Positions 2,187-23,433 of a stretch of DNA of 23,433 nucleotides are shown here, one piece after another; within the stretch, counting starts at the first letter, position 1, and every line of letters begins with the position of its first letter. This DNA comes from a virus. A program made the translations under genes and the position numbers. The notes under the pieces are model-generated. The model did not search any database, was not told where the DNA came from, and saw only the letters and a program-made list of their open reading frames with translations. The stretch covers positions 1 through 23,433 of IMG/VR virus record IMGVR_UViG_3300020185_002458, one strand, 5' to 3'.

Positions 2187-2516
2187 TTACAAACTAAAAC
2201 TTTCACCACAACCACATGTACGTGACGCGTTTGGGTTAATCCACTCGAACCCCTTACCATTTAAACCTCCTTGAAAGTTAAGTTCTGTCCCAATCAGATA
2301 AAGTAATGAGGGTTTATTGATAACAACGTTGAATGTCTCTAATTCAACAAGAGTATCAGATTCATCTACAACATTGTCGAAGTCCATCTTATATGAAAGA
2401 CCACTACAACCACCACCCAACACACCAACTCGTAAGTTATGTGTCTCAGGTGATATACCCTCCTCAATCATAACTTCATTTAGTTTCTCAACCGCCGCTT
2501 TAGTAATTGTTACCAT
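2187..2516 (-). CDS. A-type iron-sulfur cluster carrier (IscA/ErpA/HesB family)
   Basis: This is a 109-aa full-length A-type carrier of the Fe-S biogenesis family. The three conserved cysteine ligands are present: C37 in GGGCSGLSY and C101/C103 in RTCGCGESFSL at the C-terminus. The body (VNKP-like INKPSLLYLIGTELNF, then GFEWINPNA) follows the usual IscA/SufA/ErpA layout. Family members accept [2Fe-2S] or [4Fe-4S] clusters from a scaffold and pass them to apo-enzymes in the cytoplasm. No scaffold or desulfurase gene is nearby, so it would have to plug into host Isc/Suf machinery. Possible clients in this window are the radical SAM and U32-like proteins. It lies 3 nt downstream of the PcfJ-like gene. 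Which of IscA, SufA or ErpA it is closest to cannot be decided here. Confidence 0.92.
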   Translation of the reverse strand: MVTITKAAVEKLNEVMIEEGISPETHNLRVGVLGGGCSGLSYKMDFDNVVDESDTLVELETFNVVINKPSLLYLIGTELNFQGGLNGKGFEWINPNASRTCGCGESFSL

Positions 2517-5109: not shown

Positions 5110-6078
5110 TTATTTCCAATTAAACCCACACCCCATATGTCCAAACATTGAGGTTTCTTTGTAAATCGGATTCCTTAATTCTAAGAAATCTATTATACCC
5201 CGAGGGGTTAGGTCGTAACCTTCGATAGGTACGATATGTCCATTACAGTCTGCAGTTGCTTGTATTGGTTGGTCGTAACCTATGGCGTACGCCAAGGTAA
5301 CAATACACTCAATACCACCATATAATTTTAGGTAGTCCACCGCGATTCTCCTTGCCATATATGCTGCCGATCTGTCAACTTTAGTTGCGTCCTTACCACT
5401 AAAAGCACCACCACCAATAGGTACACGTGGTCCGTAGTTGTCTACCGCAAGTTTTCTACCTGTTAACCCTGCATCTGCAGTGAAACCACCAATATTCCAA
5501 TCTCCCGCAGGGTTACAATGTAGTGATTGTATAGTGTATTTGGGATATCTCTCTTCAAAAAATAGGACAACTAATTCCTCTAATTTTTCTTTAGGTGCGT
5601 TTTGGAATGAACATACGACTCTAACGCCAAGTTCATCATCAATTGTAACTTGAGTTTTACCATCGTATGGGAAGAACCCATAAACAAGTTTATTTAATTC
5701 ACGAGCCAAATAATATTCTTGAGGTAACTTTTGTTCGTTGTCATTACATGCATATCCAATCATGATTCCTTGGTCACCTGCACCACCATTATCAACTCCT
5801 TGAGATATTTCAGGTGATTGGGTATTGATATTTATAATAACTTTAATTGAATCATCAGTAGTTATGTCATGAACTACCTTTACAATGATTTCTCTTGTTA
5901 CCACTGCGTTGGAGGTTATTTCTCCTGTAATGTAAACCTCACCTATACCACCACATGTTTCAATTGCACATCGTGAATTAGGGTCTTGTTCTAAGTGTAG
6001 GTCTAATAATGTGTCTGAAATTCTATCACACATCTTATCTGGGTGCATTGGAGATACACATTCTGCGGTTCTAATCAT
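5110..6078 (-). CDS. metK: S-adenosylmethionine synthetase, compact form
   Basis: This cytoplasmic enzyme makes S-adenosylmethionine from methionine and ATP. Diagnostic motifs are all present: HPDK at 12-15, GEITS at 52-56, GAGDQG at 99-104, DGKTQVTID at 139-147, DAGLTGRK at 202-209, GGGAFSGKD at 222-230, DRSAAY at 235-240, and a C-terminal LRNPIY...FGHMG. It has 322 residues against about 380-400 in bacterial MetK, with the shortening mostly between conserved blocks, so it looks like a streamlined but intact enzyme. The usual GHPDK reads MHPDK. It starts 1 nt after the thioesterase gene. SAM consumers in the window are the DNA methyltransferase, the TylF-like methyltransferase and the radical SAM protein. 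Phage SAM synthesis could also offset host or phage SAM depletion. Confidence 0.95.
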   Translation of the reverse strand: MIRTAECVSPMHPDKMCDRISDTLLDLHLEQDPNSRCAIETCGGIGEVYITGEITSNAVVTREIIVKVVHDITTDDSIKVIININTQSPEISQGVDNGGAGDQGIMIGYACNDNEQKLPQEYYLARELNKLVYGFFPYDGKTQVTIDDELGVRVVCSFQNAPKEKLEELVVLFFEERYPKYTIQSLHCNPAGDWNIGGFTADAGLTGRKLAVDNYGPRVPIGGGAFSGKDATKVDRSAAYMARRIAVDYLKLYGGIECIVTLAYAIGYDQPIQATADCNGHIVPIEGYDLTPRGIIDFLELRNPIYKETSMFGHMGCGFNWK

Positions 6079-6079
6079 A

Positions 6080-6469: not shown

Positions 6470-6473
6470 ACTT

Positions 6474-6578
6474 TCAATAGTCGTATTCGTCATCGTTGTA
6501 TTCTGTTGTTTCGGGTACAGTAAACCCATCGTAATCCGTATTATCTAAGTCAGTATCCTCCTTTTCGTTGGGGTCCAT
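6474..6578 (-). CDS. Small acidic protein, 34 aa
   Basis: The frame reads MDPNEKEDTDLDNTDYDGFT and ends DDEYDY. It has 14 acidic residues and one lysine, so it is strongly negatively charged. The ATG is 1 nt after the thyA stop (TAA at 6582-6580) and the TGA is 4 nt before the thioesterase ATG, which is exactly the packing of the surrounding operon. That fit is the main evidence that it is real. No family is recognised. Such acidic peptides could be DNA mimics or protein-binding inhibitors, but nothing in the sequence proves it. Confidence 0.6.
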   Translation of the reverse strand: MDPNEKEDTDLDNTDYDGFTVPETTEYNDDEYDY

Positions 6579-6579
6579 C

Positions 6580-7608
6580 TTAATTACTTATTGGTGCCTT
6601 AATGGGTGGGTGAGAATGGTAGTGTAAGATTTCATAATCAAATTCACCATTCAATATATCTGAACTTATAATTTTTAATTTTGGTAAATGTGGTTTAGGT
6701 TCTCTACCAAGTTGTGTCTTAGCCTGTTCAATGTGGTTTGAGTATAAATGTACATCACCTAAATTTCCTATCAACTCACCAGGTATCATACCAACTTCTT
6801 CAGATAACAACGACAACAACATACCATACGATGCAATATTAAACGGAAGACCTAAAAATGTATCTACACTTCTCTGACTCCACATAAGAGATAGTGATCG
6901 TTTAGGTATTCCCATAGAATCTAAATGTTCGTGGAAGTAATCCGAAGATTTAGATATCTTACCTTTATTCATGTAATCAATTCTCTCGTCCAAACCTAAC
7001 ACCCGAGTATATACTTGAAACCCATAATGACAAGGTGGTAATGTCATGTTATCTAACTCCCCAACGTTCCACGCATTAACCATAAGTCTACGAGAATCAG
7101 GATTTGTTTTTAATTCTGATATAAGATCTTGTATTTGATCTATTTGTTTTGTATAAACACCAGGGTCAACTATTTTCTCATCACGAGTTGCGTTTCTACT
7201 CCAATTTCTCCACTGCTTTCCATAGATAGGACCTAAGTCTCCCCATTTCTTAGCAAACTCATCATCTGTCTTTATACGATTGATGAATTCTTCTGATGTT
7301 TCCTCCATCCCAAACTCCCTAATCTTGTTGATGTAGTTCTTATAAGCATCACCATTCCAAATGTTACACCCATTATCCACAAGATACTTAATGTTAGTAT
7401 CTCCTTTTAAGAACCATTTCAATTCAGTCATCATAGTTTTGATCGCCATCTTCTTTGTGGTTAGTAAAGGAAAACCGTCTGACATATCATGTCTTATCTG
7501 TCGACCAAAAATTGAAGTTGTTCCCGTTCCTGTTCGATCGTCCTTAAGTGTACCCATATCTAACACATCTCTTAGAAGTGTTTGGTAGTTACTATCTAAT
7601 CTATTCAT
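6580..7608 (-). CDS. thyA: Thymidylate synthase
   Basis: This folate-dependent ThyA methylates dUMP to dTMP. Recognisable elements are DRTGTGT near 24-30 with GRQIRHD after it, the catalytic cysteine C193 in LPPCHYGFQVY, RRLMVNAWN at about 173-181, and RSVDTFLGLPFNIASYG. It is 342 aa against 264 in E. coli. The extra length lies in a segment at about 90-150 (before and after the WGDLGPIYGKQWR block) and in a second one after QVYTRVLG, at about 203-236. Insertions of this kind are common in phage and larger bacterial ThyA. It is followed 1 nt later by the 34-aa peptide and preceded by a 124-aa hypothetical with a 4-nt gap. In a phage it serves dTTP supply for replication. Confidence 0.97.
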   Translation of the reverse strand: MNRLDSNYQTLLRDVLDMGTLKDDRTGTGTTSIFGRQIRHDMSDGFPLLTTKKMAIKTMMTELKWFLKGDTNIKYLVDNGCNIWNGDAYKNYINKIREFGMEETSEEFINRIKTDDEFAKKWGDLGPIYGKQWRNWSRNATRDEKIVDPGVYTKQIDQIQDLISELKTNPDSRRLMVNAWNVGELDNMTLPPCHYGFQVYTRVLGLDERIDYMNKGKISKSSDYFHEHLDSMGIPKRSLSLMWSQRSVDTFLGLPFNIASYGMLLSLLSEEVGMIPGELIGNLGDVHLYSNHIEQAKTQLGREPKPHLPKLKIISSDILNGEFDYEILHYHSHPPIKAPISN

Positions 7609-10111: not shown

Positions 10112-11494
10112 ATGAAGAAGAAGAAAATATTATTACTTTCTGATGACATGAGAATGACATCAGGTATTGCAACAATGTCCAAAGAATTTGTTTTGGGTAC
10201 TGTCCATAAATTTGATTGGGTACAATTGGGTGCCGCAATCAAACATCCTGAATCTGGTAAGATTATCGACCTTAACGATGATGTTAGAAAAAAGACCGGT
10301 GTTGAAGATGCTAACGTGAGGATATACCCCAACAATGGATATGGTGACATCTCACGACTAAGACAGTTAATTGAGTTGGAGAAACCTGACGCAATTTTAC
10401 ATTTTACTGATCCACACTATTGGCAGTGGTTGTACGATAATGAACAAGAGATAAGAAATCAAATACCAATTCTATATTACCATATATGGGATGATCTACC
10501 TGACCCACACTATAATAGGAATTACTATGAGAGTTGTGATTGGTTAGGTTGTATTTCTAAACAAACCTACGGTATTGTTGATCGTGTTGGTAAATCAACA
10601 CGTGAGTCTACACATCAACCACTTAAGAATTGGCAAGTATCTTACGTACCTCACGGTATTAATATTGAAACTTATAAACCGGTTGATTCTGACGACGAAA
10701 TGAAAAAATTCGTTCATGGTGATAAGGAATATGACTTCGTACTATTCTATAATAATAGAAACATTAAAAGGAAACAACCTTCGGATGTTATATATACATA
10801 CAGATTATTCTGTGACTCTTTACCTAAAGAAAAATCAGATAAATGTTTACTCTTAATGCACACATCTTCCGTTGATAAAAATGGAACTGATTTAGTTGCG
10901 GTAGTAAATGAGTTATGTGTTGATTACGATGTGAAGTTTACCAATGAGAAGTTTGATCAGTCTAAATTAAACCGTATGTATAATATGGTTGACTGTACCA
11001 TAAACATTGCTAACAATGAAGGTTTTGGTTTGACCACCGCTGAAAGTGTGATGTCGGGTACACCAATCATTGTCAACGTAACCGGTGGACTACAAGATCA
11101 ATGTGGTTTTAAATTAGAAGGAAAATACCTCACCGAAAAAGACTACGTAAAAATAGGTTCTCTACATGACAAAAGAAAGTGGTCTGGAGATTTAGGACTT
11201 ACTTGGGGTGAGTGGGTTAAACCTGTATGGTCATCATCCACGACTTTAAATGGTTCACCTAACACACCTTACATTTTTGATGATAGGATTAATCACTATG
11301 ACGTGGTAGATTCAATCAAGGAAGTATATGAATGGGGAAGACCTGAAAGAAAAAGAAGAGGTTTGATTGGACGTGAGTTTATGATCAAACATTTCTCAAA
11401 TAAAACAATGTGTGATTCTTTAATTAAAGGTATTAACAATACGTTTAAGAATTTTAAGAAGAAACCTAAACATCAATTACATAAGATAACATGA
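10112..11494 (+). CDS. Glycosyltransferase, GT-B fold (GT4-like)
   Basis: The 460-aa protein has a GT4-type C-terminal donor-binding domain with the E-x7-E motif, E303 and E311 in NNEGFGLTTAESVMSGTPII. The N-terminus starts KKKILLLSDDMRMTSGIATM, the glycine-containing acceptor-side loop. Mid-protein VPHGINIETYKP (about 179-190) matches the VxxGxDxxxF linker typical of retaining GT4 enzymes. A second conserved-looking patch, YHIWDDLPDPHYN (123-135), is less usual. It is cytoplasmic with no membrane anchor. It would transfer a nucleotide-activated sugar to an unknown acceptor. The stop overlaps the next start as ATGA, so the two glycosyltransferases are translationally coupled. Confidence 0.88.
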   Translation: MKKKKILLLSDDMRMTSGIATMSKEFVLGTVHKFDWVQLGAAIKHPESGKIIDLNDDVRKKTGVEDANVRIYPNNGYGDISRLRQLIELEKPDAILHFTDPHYWQWLYDNEQEIRNQIPILYYHIWDDLPDPHYNRNYYESCDWLGCISKQTYGIVDRVGKSTRESTHQPLKNWQVSYVPHGINIETYKPVDSDDEMKKFVHGDKEYDFVLFYNNRNIKRKQPSDVIYTYRLFCDSLPKEKSDKCLLLMHTSSVDKNGTDLVAVVNELCVDYDVKFTNEKFDQSKLNRMYNMVDCTINIANNEGFGLTTAESVMSGTPIIVNVTGGLQDQCGFKLEGKYLTEKDYVKIGSLHDKRKWSGDLGLTWGEWVKPVWSSSTTLNGSPNTPYIFDDRINHYDVVDSIKEVYEWGRPERKRRGLIGREFMIKHFSNKTMCDSLIKGINNTFKNFKKKPKHQLHKIT

Positions 11495-12750
11495 GTAAAC
11501 CAACATTATTATTTAGAGGACCAGTAAAAACTTTAAGTGGGTATGGTTCACACTCGAGAGATCTACTGAAATCTCTTTTCGATATGGATCTTTTCAACAT
11601 TTACATCGACAGTTCTAATTGGGGATCAACACCAATGACCGCATTGGAACCTGAGACGAATCTATTTCATTTGTGGATTGAGGAGAATGTCATCACCCAA
11701 TCAATATCACAACCCGATATCTATGTTCAGGTTACAGTACCTAATGAGTTTCAAAGGATCGGTAAATATAACATAGGAATAACAGCTGGTATTGAAACAA
11801 CAGTAGCCCCCAAATCATGGATCGATGGTTGTAATAGAATGGATAAAGTTATAACCACCTCAACGTTTTCTCGGGATGTATTATTACAAACCGTTTATAA
11901 TGAAAATGATAAAGTAAGTGGTAAGTTATTAAAACAACATAAGATTGAAGTACCACTTGAAATTCTTCACGAGGGTGTTGACACATCCATCTACAATAAT
12001 ATACCTAACGATTTTAAATTAGATATTAAGGAAGACTTTGCATATCTATTTGTTGGTCATTGGTTGACAGGTAAGATAGGACATGACAGGAAAGATGTTG
12101 GGATGTTGATTAAATGTTTCTGCGATTCATTTAATGATGTTGAGGATAAACCAGCGTTGATTTTAAAAACATCAAGTGCTACCTTCTCCGTCAAACAAAG
12201 AGAACATCTTAGAAGTAAAATCACTGACATTACCAAACACTATAGTAACCCACCATCAATCTACTTGTTGTTTGGTCAACTTACTGATGGTGAGATGAAT
12301 GGGTTATATAACCACCCCAAAGTTAAATCAATGGTTACAATAACTAAAGGTGAGGGTTATGGTAGACCACTTCTTGAATATACAATGACGGGTAAACCTG
12401 TAATCGCATCAAATTGGTCAGGACATAAAGACTTCTTACCTATGGATAAAGCAATAATGATTGGTGGGAAGTTAGTTGAAGTTGATGAAAGTGCAACAAA
12501 TGATTTTATTTTAAAGACATCTAAATGGTTCACAGCAAATTATAGTGAAGTTGTAGAAGTTTTTAAAATTGTCCACAGAGATTATGATACTTTCCTTGAA
12601 AAATCCGAATCGTTAAGGTCGGAAAACTTAGAGAAGTTTTCGATAGAATCAATAACTGAGAAGTTTAAAACAATTATGGAACCTCTATTAGTGGAGAAAC
12701 CTAAACAAGTTAAATTAAACATACCTCAACTAACAAAAATAGAAAAATAA
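11491..12750 (+). CDS. Glycosyltransferase, GT-B fold (GT4-like), second
   Basis: The 419-aa protein also has the GT4 E-x7-E signature, E288 and E296 in TKGEGYGRPLLEYTMTGKPV, and an N-terminal GPVKTLSGYGSHSRDLLKSL acceptor loop at 10-29. The linker ILHEGVDTSIYNN is at 158-170. It differs enough from the upstream enzyme to be a separate specificity rather than a recent duplicate. The start codon lies inside the previous stop (ATGA), and its TAA shares the A with the epimerase ATG (TAATG). The acceptor and sugar are unknown. It probably acts in the cytoplasm on a growing glycan or a protein. Confidence 0.88.
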   Translation: MSKPTLLFRGPVKTLSGYGSHSRDLLKSLFDMDLFNIYIDSSNWGSTPMTALEPETNLFHLWIEENVITQSISQPDIYVQVTVPNEFQRIGKYNIGITAGIETTVAPKSWIDGCNRMDKVITTSTFSRDVLLQTVYNENDKVSGKLLKQHKIEVPLEILHEGVDTSIYNNIPNDFKLDIKEDFAYLFVGHWLTGKIGHDRKDVGMLIKCFCDSFNDVEDKPALILKTSSATFSVKQREHLRSKITDITKHYSNPPSIYLLFGQLTDGEMNGLYNHPKVKSMVTITKGEGYGRPLLEYTMTGKPVIASNWSGHKDFLPMDKAIMIGGKLVEVDESATNDFILKTSKWFTANYSEVVEVFKIVHRDYDTFLEKSESLRSENLEKFSIESITEKFKTIMEPLLVEKPKQVKLNIPQLTKIEK

Positions 12751-13595
12751 TGAAGATATTAGTGACAGGTGGTGCAGGATTTATAGGGACCAACCTTATT
12801 AAAAGATTATTAAGTGAGGGACATAATGTACACTCAATAGATAATTACGACAGTGGTTTGAAAGAAAACGAAGTTGAAGGGTGTAACTACCATACGGGTG
12901 ACATACTAATTGTTAGTCTTATGGATAAAGATTTTGATATCATATATCATTTGGCTGCTCTTTCAAGAATACAACCTTCTTTTGATAATCCATTGTTAAC
13001 TTACGACACTAACGTAACCGGTACTCAAATGGTTTGTGAATTTGCAAAATCCATCGGTGCTAAAGTAATTTATGCTGGGTCATCGTCAAGATGGCACAAT
13101 CCATACCAATCACCATACGCATGTTACAAACATCTTGGTGAGGAAATATTAAAAATGTACCGTAAGGTTTATGGTTTAAACTGTGAAATTGCACGTTTCT
13201 ATAATGTTTATGGTCCTAATGAAGTTGTTGATGGAGATTGGGCAGCAGTTATAGGTATTTGGAGAAGACAGGTAAGAGATGGTGAAAAAATAACAATTGT
13301 GGGTGACGGAGAACAAAGAAGAGACTTCACACATGTTGTTGATATTGTTGACGGTCTTTATAAGATTGGAATGACCGATGAGTCCCATGATGATGCATGG
13401 GAGTTGGGAACAGGTACGAACTATTCTATTAATGAAATGTATTCAATGTTTAAAAAGAAATTTGGGACCGACCACGTATCAATACCTGATCAACCTGGTA
13501 ATTACAGGGTTACATTAAGAGAAAATAATGACACAGTAGAACGATTGGAGTGGGAACCTAAAGATAGATTACAAACCTATATAGATTCTTTATGA
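12750..13595 (+). CDS. NAD-dependent sugar epimerase/dehydratase (extended SDR)
   Basis: The Rossmann NAD-binding motif GGAGFIG is at 7-13 after MKILVT. The acidic D31-N-Y-D element for the adenosine ribose follows, then YHLAA at 66-70, and the catalytic triad S111-S113 with Y123-x3-K127 (SPYACYKHLGE). The RFYNVYGP block and GDGEQRRDFTHVVD are typical of UDP-glucose 4-epimerase and dTDP-glucose dehydratase relatives. At 281 aa it is shorter than most (about 310-340). It would interconvert a nucleotide sugar to supply the adjacent glycosyltransferases. The exact sugar cannot be read off. It overlaps both neighbours by 1 and 4 nt. Confidence 0.92.
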   Translation: MKILVTGGAGFIGTNLIKRLLSEGHNVHSIDNYDSGLKENEVEGCNYHTGDILIVSLMDKDFDIIYHLAALSRIQPSFDNPLLTYDTNVTGTQMVCEFAKSIGAKVIYAGSSSRWHNPYQSPYACYKHLGEEILKMYRKVYGLNCEIARFYNVYGPNEVVDGDWAAVIGIWRRQVRDGEKITIVGDGEQRRDFTHVVDIVDGLYKIGMTDESHDDAWELGTGTNYSINEMYSMFKKKFGTDHVSIPDQPGNYRVTLRENNDTVERLEWEPKDRLQTYIDSL

Positions 13596-14230
13596 AGATA
13601 AGTTACGCAATCACAGTGAAAGATGAGTTCATTCAAATTCAAAACCTAATTAATCATATACTTAAATTGAAACGTCACAATGACGAAATAGTCATACTAT
13701 TTGATCAAAAGAATGGGAGTACAGAATTGTTAAGTTATCTTTTAAAGTTTAATAAACTACCCAATGTACAAACATGGAGGGGATTTGATTTTAATGGTCA
13801 TTTTGCTGATTGGAAAAATCAACTGAGTGAATATTGTTCGGGTGATTATATTTTTCAAATAGATGCGGATGAGATACCAAACACTAACCTTATTAATTCA
13901 TTACCAAATATAATTGAAATGAATCCCGAAAATGAAGTTTTTTTAGTACCTCGCGTTAATACCGTAAGTGGTTTAACAGAAGAACATATTAAAAAGTGGG
14001 GTTGGAATGTATCTGAAAAGGGTTGGGTTAATTGGCCCGATTACCAATGGAGAATATGGAAAAACATACCATCAATTAAATGGGTTAATAAAGTACATGA
14101 AAAATTAGATGGTTTTAAAACGTTTTCACCTTTACCCGATAAAGAGGAGTTCTCCCTATCCCATCCAAAAGACATAAAACGTCAAGAAGAACAGAATAAT
14201 TTTTATAATAATTTGATGAATGGACATTAG
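13592..14230 (+). CDS. Glycosyltransferase, GT-A fold (GT2-like), short
   Basis: The 212-aa protein starts MKISYAITVKDE. Its DxD metal/nucleotide-sugar motif is D91-A92-D93 in IFQIDADEIPN. A C-terminal WRIWKNIPSIKWVNKVHEKL element resembles the RLxRN...VHE ending of small GT2 enzymes such as the lipopolysaccharide core glucosyltransferases. There are no membrane segments. Its start overlaps the epimerase stop (ATGA), and its 3' end overlaps the next gene by 11 nt, so expression is coupled. Acceptor and donor are unknown. Confidence 0.85.
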   Translation: MKISYAITVKDEFIQIQNLINHILKLKRHNDEIVILFDQKNGSTELLSYLLKFNKLPNVQTWRGFDFNGHFADWKNQLSEYCSGDYIFQIDADEIPNTNLINSLPNIIEMNPENEVFLVPRVNTVSGLTEEHIKKWGWNVSEKGWVNWPDYQWRIWKNIPSIKWVNKVHEKLDGFKTFSPLPDKEEFSLSHPKDIKRQEEQNNFYNNLMNGH

Positions 14231-15317
14231 TTTAGTCTTAGCTGTATATAACAACCTTGACTACACAAAAGATTGTTATGATAGGATAAGAGAAATCTAT
14301 CCCAACGCACCTATGGTAATTAGTAGTGGTGGATCGACAGATGGTACCCTATCATGGTTAGAGTCGTTGAATGATGATTTTCTATCTTACATGCACGATG
14401 ATGATAAATTATGTTTCTCCGACAATTATAACTCCGCAATCAAATTAGTTGATACTGAGAAGTTGGTACTCATACATAACGATATGGTTATTGGTGAGAA
14501 CTTCCTTGAAAATCTTTCAGATCTTATCGATGAGAAGACCCTCCTTTCGTATACAACAATAGAACCACCAATCTTTAAAGGACATAAAAGAGCGGGTAAA
14601 GTAATATTAGATTTAGGTTCTTCGTTTCATGACTTTAAGTATGATTTGTTTAACCAATACGTTGAAAAAGTTAAACAAAAGAAAACACTTGTAAATGGTG
14701 CATCATTCTTTATGTCAGGTTATAAAACTATGTTTGAAGATGTGGGATTCTTTGATGGATTCTCGTTTGATCCATTCTTTTGTGAAGACGACGACTTTCT
14801 AATACGTGCAAAATTAAAAGGGTATAATTTAAAGACGACCGAATGCGCAGTCACTTATCATTTTGTTTCCAAAACAAGTAGAGTATTAAGATCTTCCGAA
14901 AGTAAACTTAGTGAACATAAAAACATCAGAAACTTTATAAGAAAATGGGGTATACCTATTCCAATATTCAATGAGTTATATTATTGGGAAGACAATATCT
15001 TCAACTACAAGACGTTTTCGATGGGTCTAACGACACGTAACAACACTAAACTATATAATGTGGAACCTTACTTCGATAAGATCGATTTAGGGACAATTCC
15101 TGAAGATTATATATCCAACGAACAACCCAACACCAATTACGATCTTAGATCTAAATTCATACTGACTGACATAGTAGATGTTATGATAACAGAAACAAGT
15201 CCATTCACGGATGAAGATCTTTATACTATAAACAAAATCCGATTATCAATTCCTCACTATGAAGTAGGGGAATATCAAATCGGAAATATGTTAATTGATA
15301 TTAAGAGAAGAGTTTAG
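14220..15317 (+). CDS. Glycosyltransferase, GT-A fold (GT2-like), with C-terminal extension
   Basis: The N-terminal GT-A domain begins MDISLVLAVYNNLDYTKDCY. It has the GGSTDGT nucleotide-binding turn at 37-43 and a metal-binding-like HND (LVLIHNDMVIG) in place of a canonical DxD. A later CEDDDFLIRAKLKGY block corresponds to the catalytic ED(D/E) region of GT2 enzymes. The last ~130 residues (from about YYWEDNIFNY) have no recognised similarity and may bind the acceptor or a partner. It is the last gene of the glycan operon. It converges on the 150-aa minus-strand gene, the two stop codons sharing TTAG. Confidence 0.87.
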   Translation: MDISLVLAVYNNLDYTKDCYDRIREIYPNAPMVISSGGSTDGTLSWLESLNDDFLSYMHDDDKLCFSDNYNSAIKLVDTEKLVLIHNDMVIGENFLENLSDLIDEKTLLSYTTIEPPIFKGHKRAGKVILDLGSSFHDFKYDLFNQYVEKVKQKKTLVNGASFFMSGYKTMFEDVGFFDGFSFDPFFCEDDDFLIRAKLKGYNLKTTECAVTYHFVSKTSRVLRSSESKLSEHKNIRNFIRKWGIPIPIFNELYYWEDNIFNYKTFSMGLTTRNNTKLYNVEPYFDKIDLGTIPEDYISNEQPNTNYDLRSKFILTDIVDVMITETSPFTDEDLYTINKIRLSIPHYEVGEYQIGNMLIDIKRRV

Positions 15318-15822: not shown

Positions 15823-16827
15823 TTATAAAATAGTATAGACTCCATACATAATCATTAGTCCAATCCAAATAATCAATGCCTTTAGGTACGTTAAAAATCC
15901 CGTATGGAAGTATTTTTGTCCTATTGGTAGACATTTATGTGCTGGTGATATTAAGTAACCCGAGTATTCTAAAGTAAAGAACAACACAAAGTACTCCACA
16001 CCAAACACAATAGTTAAGAGACTCACAATACTTGCATATTTAGCTGATGAACCCAACACAAATGAGGACATGAAACCTAAGAAGGACACGAGAAGTATGT
16101 GTTTTGGATCTGAGTATTGTCTTATTACAAGTTCAATATCGTCGTAATAAAAATTTGTAATGTTACCTAAGATAATAACACCCGCGACAATCCATAGTAA
16201 CTCACCATTCACATAACCATATAGTTTTCTCCAACTATTTGAATAATGTATTAGGTAAATTGTGAATGCACTAAACGTCTCAAAGTAATAATCCGTAAAA
16301 CACGAAACTAAGATTGTCAGTAAGAATGGTATTACCACAAAAACAACGTTTCTCCATTCTACAGGTTCGTCATTTATTTCGATATCAATTTCATCATCCT
16401 TTAACGATATTATATAATACGCAATGTACAACGCACTTATTAAAAGTAATGGCCAAACGTATCCCATAAATTCATTATAGGTTAGTCCGATAACTGCCAT
16501 TGGAATGATAACCGACTTCTCTAACGGTGACCACAAGTAGTAGTGATGTGTGGCTAAGTAATCAATAATACCAAACTTCTTTCTTTTCTTTCTATCAATA
16601 GGTGCAATACTATTTAATAGACTTGCAGATAATGCTACCCTACCCGGTATTGGTAGGACACCACCAAAAAGAGATATCAAAAACACCACCAATTTCTTTG
16701 ACTTCACATTCTTAGCTAACCATCTAAAGATATCCGACAGATATCCCCTTTCTTTGAGGATACCCGTTACGAACATTATAAATGTTAGATACAATAAAAA
16801 GTGTTGTCCCTTTATTAGAATCTCCAT
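15823..16827 (-). CDS. DUF401-like inner-membrane permease
   Basis: The 334-aa polytopic membrane protein has roughly nine or more hydrophobic segments. Several blocks fit the DUF401 family of the ion-transporter superfamily: GGVLPIPGRVALSAS at 55-69, DYLATHHYYLWSPLEKSVII at 89-108, GFMSSFVLGSSAKYAS at 251-266 and LISPAHKCLPIGQKYF at 292-307. DUF401 transporters have no established substrate. The ATG lies inside the 3' end of the outer-membrane protein gene (13-nt overlap), so the two are translationally coupled and probably act as an envelope pair. A complete transporter gene is uncommon in phage genomes. Another ion-transporter-superfamily assignment (GntP- or ArsB-like) is possible. Confidence 0.72.
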   Translation of the reverse strand: MEILIKGQHFLLYLTFIMFVTGILKERGYLSDIFRWLAKNVKSKKLVVFLISLFGGVLPIPGRVALSASLLNSIAPIDRKKRKKFGIIDYLATHHYYLWSPLEKSVIIPMAVIGLTYNEFMGYVWPLLLISALYIAYYIISLKDDEIDIEINDEPVEWRNVVFVVIPFLLTILVSCFTDYYFETFSAFTIYLIHYSNSWRKLYGYVNGELLWIVAGVIILGNITNFYYDDIELVIRQYSDPKHILLVSFLGFMSSFVLGSSAKYASIVSLLTIVFGVEYFVLFFTLEYSGYLISPAHKCLPIGQKYFHTGFLTYLKALIIWIGLMIMYGVYTIL

Positions 16828-17729
16828 CCGAATATAATTGTGTTTCTAAATTGTTTAGCGTCTTGATTAAGACCTGGTAAAATCTCAAAGTTTACGTACC
16901 CATTTGCATTAAACCTGTATTGAAGTGCCGGTCCAACATACCATTCATTAGTACCATCAACGTCATTATGTCTAAACATGTTTGACACACCGATTGTTAA
17001 ATCATCATTGATAATTTTACCATAAGATGCTGTATATGCGTACTCTCTCTGTTGTAATTGTCTTGTAGGTGCCGCGTAAGCTTCGTATATTAAATTTAGA
17101 CCCCAAATTCCATTCTTACCTATTCTGTCACCTAATAAAATTTTAGGTTCAATTCCTTGGTACTTACCCTGTAGTAGTTTGTGTTCGAAGTAAAGTGTTG
17201 GGTTACCCCAAATTTTACCCCAATCAGCAAGAGCATATCTAATTTCCCATGACATACCTCTGAATCCAAATGATGATTGTAACCCATCACTTTTATAAAC
17301 AGTGTGGAGATATAAATCCAATTCTAATCTGTCCGCAAGACCAAACGCAAATTCATCTCTCATTCTGACTTCTGTTCCACCACCGTTCCTTTCGGTTCTC
17401 ATATCAAACCACTTCTCATACATTACAGTTCCCTTAGGTACCATAATGTAAACTCGAGTTGCTGGGAACTTTCGTACCAACGTCCACGCTGGTTGATTAT
17501 TCTCACCAACCCTTTGGAATTGTGGATATAGTTTAGCGGATACGACAACCTCTTTCAATGTTCTTACTGAATCCTGTTGTCCATTGTTTAATACTCGACT
17601 GGTGTATTGCGCAGATAAACTTTGACTACACATGGTGAGTATAATTAATAACACTTTGTTGTTTGCGAACCTAATGATCGACCCCAACGACTTTGTCAAC
17701 ACATATGATGACTTTTTTTGTTTTAACAT
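16815..17729 (-). CDS. Outer-membrane beta-barrel protein with signal peptide
   Basis: The 304-aa protein starts with a positively charged region and a hydrophobic core (NKVLLIILTMCSQSLSAQ at 24-41) ending in a plausible signal peptidase I site after LSA. LKEVVVSA at 58-65 is like the region before the barrel in Bacteroidota TonB-dependent proteins. The mature part, from about PAWTLVRKFPATRVYIMVPK (80-99), has alternating strands (RLELDLYLHTVY, LTIGVSNMFRHN) and ends FGWRF, with the terminal aromatic residue that barrel assembly machinery recognises. The barrel is small, perhaps 10-12 strands. It overlaps the permease gene by 13 nt and follows the methyltransferase gene after 75 nt, where TTTATATAAAAAAAAC precedes its ATG. 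It may be a transport partner or a superinfection-exclusion factor. Confidence 0.82.
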   Translation of the reverse strand: MLKQKKSSYVLTKSLGSIIRFANNKVLLIILTMCSQSLSAQYTSRVLNNGQQDSVRTLKEVVVSAKLYPQFQRVGENNQPAWTLVRKFPATRVYIMVPKGTVMYEKWFDMRTERNGGGTEVRMRDEFAFGLADRLELDLYLHTVYKSDGLQSSFGFRGMSWEIRYALADWGKIWGNPTLYFEHKLLQGKYQGIEPKILLGDRIGKNGIWGLNLIYEAYAAPTRQLQQREYAYTASYGKIINDDLTIGVSNMFRHNDVDGTNEWYVGPALQYRFNANGYVNFEILPGLNQDAKQFRNTIIFGWRF

Positions 17730-17804
17730 GTTTTTTTTATATAAATGTTGTTTTTATGTACATACGTACCATCATAATATAAATAAAATGTTTTTAAATG
17801 TCAA

Positions 17805-18467
17805 CTATCGTTCGATAAGAAATACCCCTAATCCATTCCAAAAGTGTTCCATATCTTCACCCTCAGTAAATATTTCACGTTGATGTGAAACATAAAGGTT
17901 CTCTTCTGTGATGACTTGTCTAAGTGCACCACTATCCCAATTCCAATCATCCATTATTAGTATGGTTTGATCCGCAAACTGTGGGATTAGTTTTTTAAGT
18001 ACTGTGTATTGATCATGGTAACGAGTGTCACCATCGTAAAATATAATATCTAATTTTGGTAATTGTGAGTAATCAAAAGTTGTGTAGTCCGTTCTATAAA
18101 CATCAATCATATCAGTGTTACCAAACCTTTTAACATTACCTAAGAAATCATCTTGTGGGGACACGTCAAGACGTTTTTTAAGGTATGTCGCTAATTTTTG
18201 ACTGACACCCATCGGCATTAAGTTGGGTGACGCAAAATTATCTATACCTATTGAGTGAATATCATTTTGGTATATGGCCGAACAGAAAGTAGCACCTCTA
18301 AAAACACCAACCTCTAAGTAGGTTCCACCAATACTACAAATGTTATTTAAGAAACACCTGACCTTATTACTCGTAATTCCATGGATGTCTATTACATCCT
18401 GATTTAGTTTCGAGACTTCGTGGTTACCCCACTCAATTGAATCGTCAATATGATTAATTAGATTCAT
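17805..18467 (-). CDS. Class I SAM-dependent methyltransferase (TylF/Methyltransf_24-like)
   Basis: The 220-aa protein has a SAM-binding motif I, TYLEVGVFRGATF at 49-61, and a later LDIIFYDGDTRY element with DGD near residue 144. It also has ILIMDDWNWDSGA, which is like the acidic metal-binding patch of TylF-type O-methyltransferases and FkbM relatives that act on sugars or small molecules. There is no membrane segment. It overlaps the U32-like gene by 14 nt, so the two are coupled. The substrate could be a glycan made by the plus-strand operon or the product of the radical SAM pathway next to it. Confidence 0.83.
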   Translation of the reverse strand: MNLINHIDDSIEWGNHEVSKLNQDVIDIHGITSNKVRCFLNNICSIGGTYLEVGVFRGATFCSAIYQNDIHSIGIDNFASPNLMPMGVSQKLATYLKKRLDVSPQDDFLGNVKRFGNTDMIDVYRTDYTTFDYSQLPKLDIIFYDGDTRYHDQYTVLKKLIPQFADQTILIMDDWNWDSGALRQVITEENLYVSHQREIFTEGEDMEHFWNGLGVFLIER

Positions 18468-19494
18468 TTAATTTCTTTTTTTTGTGTTCCGAAACAACAT
18501 CACAGTAATTACAGTCCCAACATTGAAACTTACACTTCTTTATTTTATTCCTCCAACCTTTTAATTCTTCATGTGGAATACCATCTAAATATATCTTTGA
18601 ACTCTCAGCCAATACCTCATTACCTTTTGCGTATGATTCAACAATTTCCATAGTTTCATTCAACCTGTCGAAACTATCCCTACCATGCATCTTAAAAACA
18701 TCAACATGGTTTAAGAACTCATCGAACTCTTCTTTGAATGGTGGTATTGTAGCCGTTTTAAAGAAGAATGCACCCATTTCTTTCTCCCACTTATACTCAC
18801 ATGTCACTTTAGATATTTCGTGTCTAAAATAAGGTAATTCATTGTCCTTACGTAGATTATTATAAGAGTAGTGTTCGTCCATTACTGGACATCTACCTAA
18901 ACAACCTTCATTAGTTAAAAGTGCTATCTCAACATACCTACCATGTTTCTGTTGAAACATCAATTGTGCTCTCCTAATGTTTTTTAATTCCTCAATATCT
19001 CTCATAAGGATTCTATCCACATTGATGTAGTCGAATCCTTGTTCTGCTGAATACCAAAAGTCTTGTGCGGTTGCGACCTTACGTAAGATTGTGTTTTTAA
19101 TCTTCATCTCAGGGAAATGTTCCTTTAATCCCATAGCAACCCAATGACCATGTGGTATTGTTATACAACGTAAACCTCTTTTATATAAAGGTTTTAGATT
19201 ATCGATAAATAATTTATAGTTTTCGTGTTTTGGTGACACGTTAAAGTTGTTGAAGGTAGCACTAACACTTATACCTAAAGTCTCCTGAATGATCATTGCA
19301 TTTTCAAATACAGAATCTCTATCTTCTTCTTTGAAGATACCACCCATAGCATCTTGCGTGAATGGAGGTATTCTACATGTGAAGTATATGTCGTATATCC
19401 AATCTTTATTCTTTTGTAAAAAAGGGTAGAATAGATGTGTGAACGCTTGTTCACTTAACATTGGATTTAGTGGTACTGAAAATATTTTACTCAT
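18454..19494 (-). CDS. U32-like Fe-S protein, TIM-barrel type
   Basis: The 346-aa protein looks like a relative of the peptidase U32 family (which includes the RlhA, TrhP and UbiU/UbiV hydroxylation factors). GFDYINVDRILMRDIEELKN at 153-172 precedes ALLTNEGCLGRCPVMDEH at 191-208, with C198 and C202 in the NEGCxxxCP block. C232 follows, and a C-terminal cluster C321, C325, C328 and C331 (CKFQCWDCNYC). Seven cysteines in two groups suggest one or two Fe-S clusters. Known U32 relatives support oxygen-independent hydroxylation of RNA or quinones and are not classic peptidases. It overlaps the radical SAM gene by 8 nt and the methyltransferase by 14 nt. The family call is moderate, the substrate is unknown, and a paired radical SAM partner is suggested only by context. 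Confidence 0.68.
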   Translation of the reverse strand: MSKIFSVPLNPMLSEQAFTHLFYPFLQKNKDWIYDIYFTCRIPPFTQDAMGGIFKEEDRDSVFENAMIIQETLGISVSATFNNFNVSPKHENYKLFIDNLKPLYKRGLRCITIPHGHWVAMGLKEHFPEMKIKNTILRKVATAQDFWYSAEQGFDYINVDRILMRDIEELKNIRRAQLMFQQKHGRYVEIALLTNEGCLGRCPVMDEHYSYNNLRKDNELPYFRHEISKVTCEYKWEKEMGAFFFKTATIPPFKEEFDEFLNHVDVFKMHGRDSFDRLNETMEIVESYAKGNEVLAESSKIYLDGIPHEELKGWRNKIKKCKFQCWDCNYCDVVSEHKKKKLNESN

Positions 19495-20485
19495 TCTCTA
19501 AACAACCCCCACATATACCATTACATTCTGTCTTATAGAAGACACAATCTAAACAGTCTTGTGGTAAGGTGTAGTTTTTATGGTTCTCTTTATAGAGATT
19601 ATCGAATTCATCTCTAAGTGTTAATATATTGTTTTTTCCTGAGACTTTCAAGACATTATCAATCTTTACTTTGTCTTGTAACGGATAACAATGTATCGAA
19701 CTCCCATCAGGAAATATATCTAACGGCATAAACCCACAAACTGTTTCATGTCCTGGTACTTTAAATGTTGCAAACCCTAATGAATTAATATTGACAGACT
19801 CCTTAGTTTCTCCTTCCCATAAACATGGTGGTACTTGACAATCTGACGTTATCCTTATGTCATTGTAAAAACCAAAGTTAAGTATTTTAGTAATCTCCTG
19901 TCCCATCTCCTTATTGTTAATGAGGTAGTTACCTGTTAAATCAACACCGAGTCTAAACGCATTAATTCGACCATCTAATTGAAGGTATAACCATTTGACG
20001 TATTCATACAATTTACGTTCTTTCCAATCGGATGACATAGTAATTGCAATGAACAATCTCGCGTTGTCTTCAAACCCCCATATATTTGAGTAAGCGGTGT
20101 GTAGTGCTAAGTAATTCTTTTTAAATAAACCGATTCTATTTTTCTCATCTAACTCAGCTCCATTAGGTAACATCCAACGTATGTGTTCGAGATTATTGAT
20201 GATATAATCCAATGTCTTTTTACCAAACAATAGATTACTCACAAGATTTATTGTGTAACCTCTCGATATAATGTAATCTATAATACCTGTGAAGTTTGGG
20301 TGTTGTGTAGGTTCACCACCTAATATTGTAACCTCCTCATCACTATTAACCATATCAAAATGATCTAATAGTTCGGTCACTTTGTCTATTGACATATCAC
20401 CTAAGGTATGTTTAACTCTCGCATCTTCTTTAGTGAAACAAAATGAACAACCTTTAGCACATGTACCGTTAATTGCTAAGTTCAT
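19487..20485 (-). CDS. Radical SAM enzyme with SPASM-like C-terminus
   Basis: The N-terminus has a canonical C9-x3-C13-x2-C16 motif (CAKGCSFC) for the [4Fe-4S] cluster that cleaves SAM. It is followed by GGEP at 56-59 for methionine-amino recognition. Later CGFMPLDIFPDGSSIHCYPL and a final CLDCVFYKTECNGICGGC with C311, C314, C321, C325 and C328 resemble a SPASM or twitch auxiliary-cluster domain, as in peptide-modifying radical SAM enzymes. It acts in the cytoplasm and makes a 5'-deoxyadenosyl radical. It lies between the structural-looking 246-aa gene (9-nt gap) and the U32-like gene (8-nt overlap). No RiPP-like precursor peptide frame is visible nearby. The substrate may be a protein, a sugar or a small molecule. 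Confidence 0.9.
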   Translation of the reverse strand: MNLAINGTCAKGCSFCFTKEDARVKHTLGDMSIDKVTELLDHFDMVNSDEEVTILGGEPTQHPNFTGIIDYIISRGYTINLVSNLLFGKKTLDYIINNLEHIRWMLPNGAELDEKNRIGLFKKNYLALHTAYSNIWGFEDNARLFIAITMSSDWKERKLYEYVKWLYLQLDGRINAFRLGVDLTGNYLINNKEMGQEITKILNFGFYNDIRITSDCQVPPCLWEGETKESVNINSLGFATFKVPGHETVCGFMPLDIFPDGSSIHCYPLQDKVKIDNVLKVSGKNNILTLRDEFDNLYKENHKNYTLPQDCLDCVFYKTECNGICGGCLENE

Positions 20486-20494
20486 TTTATGTTT

Positions 20495-21235
20495 TTAGAA
20501 ATCCATTTTTAGTGTGAGTGGTGTACTTTCAATACCCTCCGCTTCTTTTTGTTGTCTACTAAGTGCAATTCCGAATTTTTCATGTTTAAGTCTATGACAA
20601 TCGGCAATACTTTCACAATCTTTAACTTTTGTTTCTAATAGTTGTTGTTCAAGAAGTAGTGTCGCTAATTTTGTGTTATATGTCGTAACGTTTGATATAA
20701 TCTTATCTACCAATACTTGTTTGCCTATACCCCTACCGTTTGAAAGTATATCTATTACAGGTGTTGGGTAGTTACTGTTCTCTTGATATGCGAACGCCTC
20801 TCTCTTCTGTTCCTCCCACGTATCTTTCTCAAGATTAGATGCATCAACCATTAATGTTTTGTGTCTTTCAGAAAATCTATCAGCAATGATCTTTTTCATT
20901 ACTACCTTATTAAACTCTACACCCGATAACTTATCTTCATCGGTTAATACGTGTCTAACTTTTTCAGCGTCGGTTTCAGATGATTCCGCCAATTGTGGAA
21001 CTTCGTCCATAATATGTGAATTAGTTCTAATACTGATGTAGTCGTTATAATTGTCAGCAAATACAAATCCCCGTGCAATGTCTGCCGGAATTATCTCAGC
21101 ACCCATACCAACAAGTTCAACTCTCATATCATTGTATTCGTCAGCAATTCTACCGTAATAGTAATTCATATACATCCCAACCACATTAATGTAACCGGGT
21201 ATATTACCTTGCAATTTGAAGATTATGTGTGTCAT
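20495..21235 (-). CDS. Hypothetical phage structural-type protein, 246 aa
   Basis: Not recognised. It begins MTHIIFKLQGNIPGYINVVG, followed by MYMNYYYGRIADEYNDMRVE, a beta-rich, aromatic N-terminal region. Then come charged helical segments (MKKIIADRFSERHKTLMVDA, WEEQKREAFAYQEN) and a C-terminal coiled-coil-like stretch (LLLEQQLLETKVKDCESIAD). There is no signal peptide. Its ATG shares one base with the stop of the 255-aa gene upstream (TAATG), and it sits downstream of the tail genes. A virion or tail-assembly role is inferred from position only. Confidence 0.72.
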   Translation of the reverse strand: MTHIIFKLQGNIPGYINVVGMYMNYYYGRIADEYNDMRVELVGMGAEIIPADIARGFVFADNYNDYISIRTNSHIMDEVPQLAESSETDAEKVRHVLTDEDKLSGVEFNKVVMKKIIADRFSERHKTLMVDASNLEKDTWEEQKREAFAYQENSNYPTPVIDILSNGRGIGKQVLVDKIISNVTTYNTKLATLLLEQQLLETKVKDCESIADCHRLKHEKFGIALSRQQKEAEGIESTPLTLKMDF

Positions 21236-22002
21236 TATAATAGTTTTTCTGTTTCAGTTTTATTAGTTGTCCCTAACTTTAGTTGGTTCCTCAAAGATTC
21301 CTCAATAGAGAAATTGTTTTGAGTTGCCGAAACCATGGAACTTTGAACGTTCTTTTCAATAAATACAGTGTAAGAAGACGCAAGTGATAAAACTTGTGTT
21401 TGTTGTTCAGGTGACATCATTAATATTGAGTCTAAATTTCCTGTACCAATTCTTCCATAAGATATCATATCTAACATTGCTTGTTTCGCCATACGAACAG
21501 TCCAATACTCATGTTCAAACTTATCTTCTAATTCGCTATTACCAAATACATCCATTAATGATGTCCCATCGGGTAATTTAGAATCGTCACTTTCGATAAA
21601 TTCTTTTACTAAATCTAAAAACCCCTGACGTTCAATATAAGAATCTTTTAAATTCCTTCTAAATTTTCTTAGATCAATCTCCATATCTGCAATCGACAAT
21701 TCAATCAATTCCTTTTTAAGTGGATCTGTAATATGTTCAAAACCTCTTTGTTGTAATTCAATCTCGATCTCCTGTTTTCTCACCTTATGTTCTAAGTGTT
21801 GTACAGCATCTTCTCTTCCCCTAAGTTCGAGTAACCATTGTTTTAACTTTGCATATGGTGTGATTTGTGCACCCCCAACAAAACTCTCCGCTTTGTATTT
21901 TGGTAATGCAAATGAGATGTTCTCAGATACCTCCATTAATTTAAGATCAATTGGGTCTTTTAAATTCTCTTCTCTATTGTATTTGTAACCTTGTTCGGAC
22001 AT
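21235..22002 (-). CDS. Hypothetical phage protein, 255 aa, coiled-coil rich
   Basis: Not recognised by family. The long central part is strongly helical and charged (LEHKVRKQEIEIELQQRGFE, DMEIDLRKFRRNLKDSYIER), consistent with extended coiled coil. The C-terminal part carries YWTVRMAKQAMLDMISYG and the Q-rich SPEQQTQVLSLASSY. There is no membrane segment or enzyme motif. It is 56 nt after the 3' end of the tail-fibre gene and is followed immediately by the 246-aa gene. The two look like a structural or assembly pair. Its leader contains a perfect 8-bp AT inverted repeat, and a TATTAAAAG element lies about 10 nt before the ATG. Confidence 0.72.
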   Translation of the reverse strand: MSEQGYKYNREENLKDPIDLKLMEVSENISFALPKYKAESFVGGAQITPYAKLKQWLLELRGREDAVQHLEHKVRKQEIEIELQQRGFEHITDPLKKELIELSIADMEIDLRKFRRNLKDSYIERQGFLDLVKEFIESDDSKLPDGTSLMDVFGNSELEDKFEHEYWTVRMAKQAMLDMISYGRIGTGNLDSILMMSPEQQTQVLSLASSYTVFIEKNVQSSMVSATQNNFSIEESLRNQLKLGTTNKTETEKLL

Positions 22003-22058: not shown

Positions 22059-23162
22059 TTATTCTCTCCAACCACAATGTCCTGATGATGTTCCCGCATT
22101 AACCCCTGGGTTTAATCCTTGAACACTTGTTGTACCTGTGTCTGTTGAGTAGATGAATTTCCAACTCGTATTATTTTGTGTACCATCGTAAACACCTAAC
22201 ATGTATTGATGATCTTGTCCCATTGTGAAATTTTCTTCACCACAATTTGGATGTGGTTTCACCACATTACCAATATTAGTGTCACTTGTGTTGTCCCATC
22301 TTCTTAAGTTATATCCACCTGCGTAAGATCCCTCATTACCAGCATAACCTTTACCAACTTTGGAACTTATTCCTTTTTGTTGTCCGTGTGCACCCCACTT
22401 AGTTCCAGTAACATGTGTCTCAGTTGCAAAAGCAAATTTAAATCCACCAAATCCACCCCAACCATAACCATGGTTCTCATCAGAGAATCCACTTGCACCT
22501 TCACCACCATTATATGATGAAAGAATACCAGCGTGTGATTCATTGGTTAGATTAAATCTTTCCATATTTGTGTTTCCACCATCAAACAAATAAGCAAACT
22601 CAGTCTCCTTGAATAACGTACCTAAATCATGCCGAATATATGTTATATCAAACTTAGCTTGATGTGCATAATTGGTGTCGTTAAACATATTTACTGCAGA
22701 AGTTGTGGTTCCATGTGTGTTAGTTGCTGATTTCCAAGCACCATCTGTGTTAACTGACCATATAAATAAAATAGACTTACTACAAGCACCTGAACTATAT
22801 GACATAGGATAATCCAATAACTCACCAATGTGATTCGTTTGGTCTGTCGAGTTAACTGTTTTATGTACGTTCTTCCATGGGGATGATGATTTGTATCCAC
22901 CCGCTAAATACGAATAATTAATTACTTGTCTATATTTGAAATCCGTTGGTCTTGGTTCCTGTGCACCAATCATTTCCCAACCATCATCAATGTTTGAGAT
23001 ACCAGTATATAACATCATAAAACTACCACTATCGGATTGTTCCATAAATAAGGACCCCGACAAAGGACTTGATGGTCTATTAGCACGAGTCCCTTTTGGT
23101 GGTCTCGCAACTACTTTGTCCACATTAAGTGAACCACTAACCGACATATTTCCGTATTCCAT
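22059..23162 (-). CDS. Tail fibre or adhesin protein, 367 aa
   Basis: The N-terminus has the layout seen in phage fibre proteins: GSLNVDKVVARPPKGT, then RPSSPLSGSLFMEQSDSGSF, then MLYTGISNIDDGWEMIGA, a trimer-forming or attachment region. The middle is glycine, serine, asparagine and aromatic rich with no catalytic motif (YGWGGFGGFKFAFATETHVT). The C-terminal ~75 residues end SSGHCGWRE and are nearly identical to the next gene upstream. Such proteins bind host receptors on the phage tail. Start: ATG at 23162, 15 nt after the previous stop, preceded by TAATATAAAAAAAG. The host receptor is unknown. Confidence 0.85.
   Translation of the reverse strand: MEYGNMSVSGSLNVDKVVARPPKGTRANRPSSPLSGSLFMEQSDSGSFMMLYTGISNIDDGWEMIGAQEPRPTDFKYRQVINYSYLAGGYKSSSPWKNVHKTVNSTDQTNHIGELLDYPMSYSSGACSKSILFIWSVNTDGAWKSATNTHGTTTSAVNMFNDTNYAHQAKFDITYIRHDLGTLFKETEFAYLFDGGNTNMERFNLTNESHAGILSSYNGGEGASGFSDENHGYGWGGFGGFKFAFATETHVTGTKWGAHGQQKGISSKVGKGYAGNEGSYAGGYNLRRWDNTSDTNIGNVVKPHPNCGEENFTMGQDHQYMLGVYDGTQNNTSWKFIYSTDTGTTSVQGLNPGVNAGTSSGHCGWRE
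22228..22274. repeat. Direct repeat, copy 1 (47 bp identical)
   Basis: This 47-bp stretch within the fibre gene's 3' region is identical to 23347-23393. It lies within a longer similar block that runs to the stop codons of both genes, and it encodes NIGNVVKPHPNCGEENF-type sequence. Confidence 0.9.
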
Positions 23163-23177
23163 TCTTCTTTTTTTATA

Positions 23178-23433
23178 TTATCTCCAACCACAATGTCCTG
23201 AGGATGTTCCCGCATTAACTGCCGGAGCCAACCCTGGTATATTTGTAGTTCCTGTATCTGTTGAATAATTAAATTTCCAACTTGTATTATTTTGACCAGT
23301 CCCGTCGTAGTTACCTAACATATATTGGGAATCTTGACCTAATGCAAAATTTTCTTCACCACAATTTGGATGTGGTTTCACCACATTACCAATGTTAGTA
23401 TCACTTGTGTTGGACCATCGTCTTAAGTTGTAC
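23178..23433 (-). CDS. Tail fibre or adhesin paralogue, C-terminal fragment (cut by window edge)
   Basis: The open frame enters from the right edge and reads YNLRRWSNTSDTNIGNVVKP onward to SSGHCGWR at the stop (23180-23178). It aligns along its whole visible length with the end of the adjacent 367-aa fibre gene, with scattered substitutions (for example FALGQDSQ against FTMGQDHQ, and IPGLAPAV against VQGLNPGV). It is the 3' end of a longer gene, not a small gene of its own. The two genes are tandem paralogues sharing a C-terminal knob, and its stop codon also forms part of the leader of the next gene. Confidence 0.88.
   Translation of the reverse strand, partial: YNLRRWSNTSDTNIGNVVKPHPNCGEENFALGQDSQYMLGNYDGTGQNNTSWKFNYSTDTGTTNIPGLAPAVNAGTSSGHCGWR
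23347..23393. repeat. Direct repeat, copy 2 (47 bp identical)
   Basis: Second copy of the 47-bp direct repeat, in the paralogous fibre gene fragment. Copies about 1.1 kb apart could recombine and delete or swap the intervening fibre gene. Confidence 0.9.

Follow-up and report, generated by a model that had tools for sequence, protein, structure and literature searches.

A conserved phage enzyme module of a U32-like barrel protein and an O-methyltransferase, inherited with particular fibre genes

What do three overlapping enzyme genes do immediately behind the fibre genes of a phage? The question is raised by a virus record of IMG/VR (IMGVR_UViG_3300020185_002458), whose positions 1 to 23,433, the whole stretch analysed here, are referred to as the window. 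Its minus strand encodes a radical S-adenosylmethionine (SAM) protein of 332 amino acids (aa), a protein of 346 aa resembling the U32 family and a methyltransferase of 220 aa. These genes belong to a real, conserved and previously unrecognised phage enzyme module, found in many marine and freshwater bacterial viruses right behind fibre genes. The enzyme set probably hydroxylates and methylates a substrate in an oxygen-independent manner; since it is inherited and swapped with particular fibre genes, it may chemically finish the fibre itself. What is new is the combination and its setting; the parts are known.

The gene structure described in the initial annotation was confirmed: the genes overlap by 8 nucleotides (nt; radical SAM and 346-aa genes) and by 14 nt (346-aa and methyltransferase genes), and the radical SAM gene begins 9 nt behind the gene for a 246-aa protein. 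Related loci were collected by a search of viral contigs with the 346-aa protein (80 close loci) and a search with the radical SAM protein; some of these loci share one contig. The trio was intact in 86 of 90 loci, the remaining four ending at contig ends, the 14-nt overlap was preserved in 168 loci, and the ratio of nonsynonymous to synonymous substitution rates was ∼0.04–0.06 for all three genes (closer pairs, where not saturated). The cassette is thus far beyond chance, and strong purifying selection acts on each of its genes.

In the clade of the window phage (the trio clade) the gene order is phrog_1417 (usually in tandem), phrog_1409, phrog_1604, radical SAM, U32-like and methyltransferase, mostly followed by a barrel-like protein, DUF401 and glycosyltransferases. 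In isolated cyanophages the U32-like and methyltransferase parts make up one gene, T4-GC 354 / phrog_1458, annotated as hypothetical. Phrog_1458 spans both window proteins (3.5e-95 and 2.5e-33); the barrels are 43–47% identical, and the gene has the same position behind homologues of T4-GC 351-353. It differs from the window version in being fused and in lacking the radical SAM partner. Fusion was seen in 73 of the 74 cyanophage-type loci that could be tested, which argues that the two enzymes act in the same pathway; the proposal of a multi-step modification pathway is well supported on this ground. Nearly all of 80 cyanophage-type loci have the same fibre-region genes ahead of the duo, and a radical SAM homologue was detected in none of the 80. 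The conserved unit is therefore the duo of U32-like protein and O-methyltransferase; the radical SAM gene is optional and was either gained by one clade or lost from the other. The neighbourhood search that had been named as a check thus upheld the co-occurrence of the trio in related genomes and reduced its constant part to two genes. The accompanying remark that no phage system with this trio had been described needs a similar amendment, as isolated cyanophages already carry the duo without an annotation. No paper on a U32-like/O-methyltransferase pair in phages was found in the open-access literature searched.

The 332-aa protein belongs to the radical SAM superfamily, with a match to PF04055 above the cut-off (1.4e-9) and an invariant CxxxCxxC motif (C9xxxC13xxC16). 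It has five C-terminal cysteines (C311, C314, C321, C325 and C328) and four others (C216, C221, C250 and C266), and all 12 are invariant in 18 relatives. Compared with the SPASM motif (CX9-15GX4C, CX2CX5CX3C and C), the pattern is near-SPASM: C250x10Gx4C266 (CX10GX4C) is followed by C311x2C314x6C321x3C325x2C328, where the middle spacing is one residue longer. The Pfam SPASM profile gave no report for this protein at E up to 1, and nothing useful came from searching the PDB with a profile built on the alignment of radical SAM proteins.

Structure prediction of the 346-aa protein had been set beforehand as a check on its U32-type fold, and this fold came out best. The AlphaFold2 (AF2) model is a TIM barrel (predicted local distance difference test score, pLDDT, 85.8). 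Its best Foldseek match was the U32 peptidase Mk0906 (5D88) at 1.5e-7, with the next at 6.8e-6; VIA-align also placed 5D88 first (Z 16.1, 3.3 Å over 222 residues), ahead of methylenetetrahydrofolate reductases with Z ∼14 (next 14.4 at 4.7 Å) and root-mean-square deviations near 5 Å. Mk0906 thus ranks above other TIM barrels in both comparisons. Independently of structure, the protein matched phrog_2895 (1.9e-5), which is the U32 family (TrhP 1010 bits, RlhA 193, UbiU 167), and through this match it has sequence homology to TrhP, UbiU and RlhA. An hhalign comparison with nine U32 proteins was in register and, though weak at 22% probability, scored better (P 9.5e-4) than a reversed control (P 0.079), and the global alignment set K-M-H-G-R of the phage protein on the U32 motif K-I-E-G-R (KxxGR). 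The Pfam U32 profile (PF01136) hit nothing in the window at a limit as loose as E 10 and matched only three of 46 relatives weakly (best 0.012); phmmer and profile searches of PDB sequences with the 346-aa protein found no U32. Given the lack of a usable Pfam match and an altered catalytic motif, we rejected formal U32 family membership and use the name U32-like. Of the earlier description as a U32-like iron–sulphur (Fe-S) protein, the U32-like part keeps its footing in the modelled fold, which is closest to U32, and is qualified by these same two points; the Fe-S cluster is putative.

The cysteine motifs first noted in the sequence of this protein are present and conserved as well: the seven cysteines in NEGC198xxxC202P, C232 and the C-terminal four-Cys motif C321x3C325x2C328x2C331 (CX3CX2CX2C) are invariant in 46 relatives. 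A near-invariant C40 after strand 2 may correspond in position to UbiV C39. Pfam 'v110' matches on the Cys-rich C-terminus were below threshold and were taken as compositional.

The third gene has the expected class I SAM site (motif YLE-x-G-x3-G-x-T). Its product matched Pfam Methyltransf_24 above the curated cut-off (1.5e-7), a domain present in 37 of 37 sequences. The top VIA matches of its AF2 model (pLDDT 91.5) are the cation-dependent COMT group (Z 17.2–15.3) and comprise TomG, a Leptospira O-methyltransferase, SafC, TrmR (Z 16.6), a Synechocystis enzyme and MycF; the best PDB profile hit was an O-methyltransferase (0.0028). Residues D145, D173, D174 and N176 are invariant and lie at the expected metal-site positions, which we take to be equivalent to COMT D141/D169/N170. 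The protein models as a cation-dependent COMT/TrmR-type O-methyltransferase.

A similar pair of enzymes is known from bacteria. The trmR-trhP1-trhP2 (yrrMNO) operon of B. subtilis encodes an O-methyltransferase and two U32 proteins that make mo5U34 of tRNA by hydroxylation followed by O-methylation (PMC6599085). The phage module likewise has a U32-fold protein encoded in an operon with a class I O-methyltransferase of the cation-dependent kind; as the components of the duo correspond to these, and form a single protein in cyanophages, the same hydroxylate-then-methylate logic would be its natural reading. The phage barrel differs in being too diverged for Pfam U32, in its C-x3-C spacing and in the extra four-Cys motif, and the phage duo differs in its fusion and its tie to fibre genes. 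UbiU-UbiV are U32 proteins with [4Fe-4S] clusters that act as O2-independent hydroxylases of quinone precursors (PMC6747719). They share with the phage protein the U32 barrel and, by our inference, the [4Fe-4S] cluster; the phage protein differs in cysteine spacing, is phage-borne and has no SCP2 partner gene that we could see.

The link to fibre genes is visible in a collection of phages. The tally is 123 records (77 Synechococcus, 38 Cyanophage and 8 Prochlorococcus) for the U32-like protein, for the methyltransferase and for phrog_1409; phrog_1604 has the same 77/38/8 tally plus two other records, and 121 records hold the phrog_1417 fibre gene at nearly its full length. T4-GC 347, a fibre-region gene used as control, is present in 318 records, 313 of them cyanophages. 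P-SSM7 and others share only the N-terminus of the phrog_1417 fibre gene, and P-SSM7 is without T4-GC 352-354 at the locus. In S-ShM2 the fused gene stands ∼5.8 kb from phrog_1409, with three 2-oxoglutarate (2OG)-Fe(II) oxygenase genes, petE and gnd between; adjacency alone, therefore, is not enough to account for the link.

The sister phages P-HM1 and P-HM2 provide the sharpest evidence. Their nucleotide homology ends at the end of T4-GC 514 and restarts just before T4-GC 517; between these homologous flanks P-HM2 has T4-GC 351-352-353-354-585-586, whereas in P-HM1 this place is taken by 515-516 and the gene for a 2OG-Fe(II) oxygenase. The swap of these blocks suggests that fibre types appear to travel with their own hydroxylase. 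The oxygenases share the exchangeable fibre block with the duo and differ from it in being oxygen-dependent, of an unrelated family and without a methyltransferase partner. Exchangeable radical SAM genes in T4-like genomes are also reported from gene modules of the Campylobacter phages CP220/CPt10 and from the host-recognition clusters of pelagimyophages, where a U32-like/O-methyltransferase pair is not described in the available parts of these papers (PMC2853527, PMC7029224). The blocks exchanged between P-HM1 and P-HM2 have clean boundaries and lie at L312:12176-14179 versus L303:4395-10246 in our numbering of loci. Two candidate substrate tags were considered, a conserved motif at the C-terminus of phrog_1417 and the Phe conserved at that of phrog_1604, and neither was convincing.

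We favour, if tentatively, the explanation that the cassette modifies the fibre-region proteins with which it is co-inherited, as a pathway that goes with one type of host-recognition fibre. The U32-like barrel would hydroxylate the substrate at a [4Fe-4S] centre without oxygen, the COMT/TrmR-type enzyme would then O-methylate the new hydroxyl and, in the clade of the window, the SPASM-like radical SAM enzyme would contribute a further radical step. The substrates would most likely be the proteins encoded just upstream (phrog_1417, 1409 and 1604), and the phage would thereby chemically mature its own receptor-binding apparatus. The module itself is most likely a hydroxylation/O-methylation pathway tied to fibre type. 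A fibre was one of several targets considered at the outset; co-inheritance and cassette exchange favour it, and the target and the chemistry, from Fe-S binding to the order of the steps, are what we infer. A wider scheme is possible and somewhat more doubtful: an oxygen-independent protein modification in which a diverged U32 enzyme hydroxylates receptor-binding fibres, the fused O-methyltransferase caps the hydroxyl, a radical SAM step is added in some phages, and each fibre cassette carries a dedicated hydroxylase, either U32-methyltransferase or 2OG oxygenase.

Several points weigh against a fibre-modifying pathway. The whole case is computational. Fold similarity does not show the function of the 346-aa protein. 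The U32 catalytic motif E-x7-C-x6-C is replaced here by C198-x3-C202, with a variable preceding Glu, so that the protein may no longer hydroxylate or may catalyse a different reaction. Close S-RIM2/S-RIM12 isolates make up ∼90 of the 123 records, and the equality of the record numbers is one of tallies. The substrate of TrmR is tRNA, and the module, sitting in a region rich in auxiliary metabolic genes, may target a host molecule. We know of no modified residues on these fibres. The altered motif concerns residues that are essential in TrhP (E162, C170 and C177; PMC6599085).

A glycan or small molecule as the product is an unlikely alternative, and it has the neighbourhood in its favour. The cassette would build or decorate a host surface polysaccharide or a virion-attached sugar together with neighbouring genes: five glycosyltransferase/epimerase genes come next on the other strand, syntenic in the trio clade, and the close fold matches include MycF and SpnH, which O-methylate sugars. 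Lipopolysaccharide genes are reported to be abundant in this region in related phages (PMC7029224). The window's glycan genes, however, are encoded on the other strand, past the porin-DUF401 genes, and its glycosyltransferases and epimerase were detected in none of the 80 duo-bearing cyanophage-type loci, in stretches of only 4–13 kb.

We consider it quite unlikely that the duo modifies tRNA or rRNA in the manner of TrhP/TrmR, where a U32-dependent pyrimidine hydroxylation and an O-methylation would tune decoding during infection. TrhP with TrmR is the nearest bacterial pairing (PMC6599085), TrmR is among the best fold matches of the methyltransferase, and two RNA hydroxylases are among the U32 enzymes of known function. 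Yet many COMT-type O-methyltransferases with small-molecule substrates match equally well, no tRNA gene was found in the window, and an RNA target gives no reason for strict co-occurrence and swapping with fibre-region genes. A metabolic gene set for host cofactors (quinone or similar) that hitch-hikes in the fibre region is improbable: ubiquinone synthesis likewise combines UbiU-UbiV with O-methylation (PMC6747719) and the hypervariable region of these phages also holds metabolic genes such as petE and gnd, but a record tally equal to that of three fibre-region genes is not expected of a free-standing metabolic gene.

Should the fibre prove to be the substrate, host-recognition chemistry would exceed fibre sequence, with fibres enzymatically finished by enzymes that move along with them. 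U32 enzymes would then reach from RNA and quinones to proteins and, to our knowledge, this would be the first U32-type enzyme with a protein substrate. T4-GC 354, a hypothetical gene by annotation present in 123 of ∼313 searched cyanophage records, would gain a role, and a role may be hinted at for some 2OG-Fe(II) oxygenase genes of cyanophage fibre regions. P-HM1 and P-HM2, which were co-isolated on the same Prochlorococcus host, offer a natural comparison.

Positions in the window of the cassette, the fibre-region genes and other features discussed in the text
Feature	Position	Strand	Evidence and remarks
Radical SAM protein with SPASM-like auxiliary cysteines, 332 aa	19487..20485	-	Pfam Radical_SAM 1.4e-9; 12 invariant Cys; present only in clade of window phage
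U32-like TIM-barrel protein, 346 aa, putative O2-independent hydroxylase	18454..19494	-	AF2 model, best fold match Mk0906, PHROG 2895
Cation-dependent COMT/TrmR-type O-methyltransferase (modelled), 220 aa	17805..18467	-	Methyltransf_24, AF2 model, structure matches, invariant residues
Fibre-region protein, 246 aa, phrog_1604 (T4-GC 352 in cyanophages)	20495..21235	-	PHROG 1.9e-26
Fibre-region protein, 255 aa, phrog_1409 (T4-GC 353)	21235..22002	-	PHROG 3.4e-47
Fibre protein with conserved C-terminal domain, phrog_1417 (T4-GC 351, 'sericin 1 precursor-like')	22059..23162	-	PHROG 1.2e-42; accompanies duo in both clades
Truncated second copy of fibre protein (tandem paralogue)	23178..23433	-	blastp 86% identity to fibre gene; gene continues past window end
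Outer-membrane-barrel-like protein, conserved neighbour	16815..17729	-	Weak Phenol_MetA_deg match, under cut-off; position conserved
DUF401/CitMHS-like membrane transporter, conserved neighbour	15823..16827	-	Pfam DUF401 7e-11; position conserved
A-type Fe-S carrier (IscA/SufA-like), possible cluster supplier	2187..2516	-	Pfam Fe-S_biosyn 2.6e-14
S-adenosylmethionine synthetase, possible SAM supplier	5110..6078	-	Three Pfam MetK domains
Promoter-like site, gap after methyltransferase gene	17776..17804	-	TTGACA-17-TATATT, 11/12 matches

The promoter-like match after the methyltransferase gene is the strongest in the window, where the total count of such sites is not above that of shuffles; it is suggestive only of a separate transcription unit for the genes beyond. 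The A-type Fe-S carrier gene is present in 7 of 11 trio records and in none of five cyanophage-type records, which is consistent with, and not proof of, a larger Fe-S demand in the trio clade. A link to SAM supply via metK was weakened by its presence in only 3 of the 11 trio records. In the window, the genes for SAM synthetase, a 4HBT thioesterase and thymidylate synthase adjoin (5110-7608).

The idea that the trio clade has a cyanobacterial host found no support, as no psbA was found in the 11 records, most of which are fragments. The gp23 of one trio record was nearest to an uncultured phage and to Rhodothermus, Microcystis and Flavobacterium phages. A bacterial origin of the module was also sought: the genome scan, run with phage-specific patterns that could miss more distant bacterial relatives, gave a single contig of a metagenome-assembled genome; it encodes a fused protein of 581 aa and was interpreted as contamination of the cyanophage type. 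Locus L094, a contig with a cyanophage-type fused gene assigned to a GTDB 'Dehalococcoidia' metagenome-assembled genome, is probably phage DNA that was misbinned.

Cyanophage S-H25 likewise has a DUF401 homologue close to its duo (L003:8185-9207). The five glycosyltransferase/epimerase genes occupy positions 10112-15317 of the window, and trio-clade contigs differ in their order, with GT365, GT212 and the epimerase trading positions. Several of the loci L079-L084 have an insertion of ∼650 bp between phrog_1604 and the radical SAM gene; in L081 the interval is just ∼90 bp. Paralogous fibre genes that share a conserved C-terminal domain stand in tandem, as many as three in a row, at window positions 22059-23433 and at L005:53-3436; in most of them this domain ends in SSGHCGWR-x.

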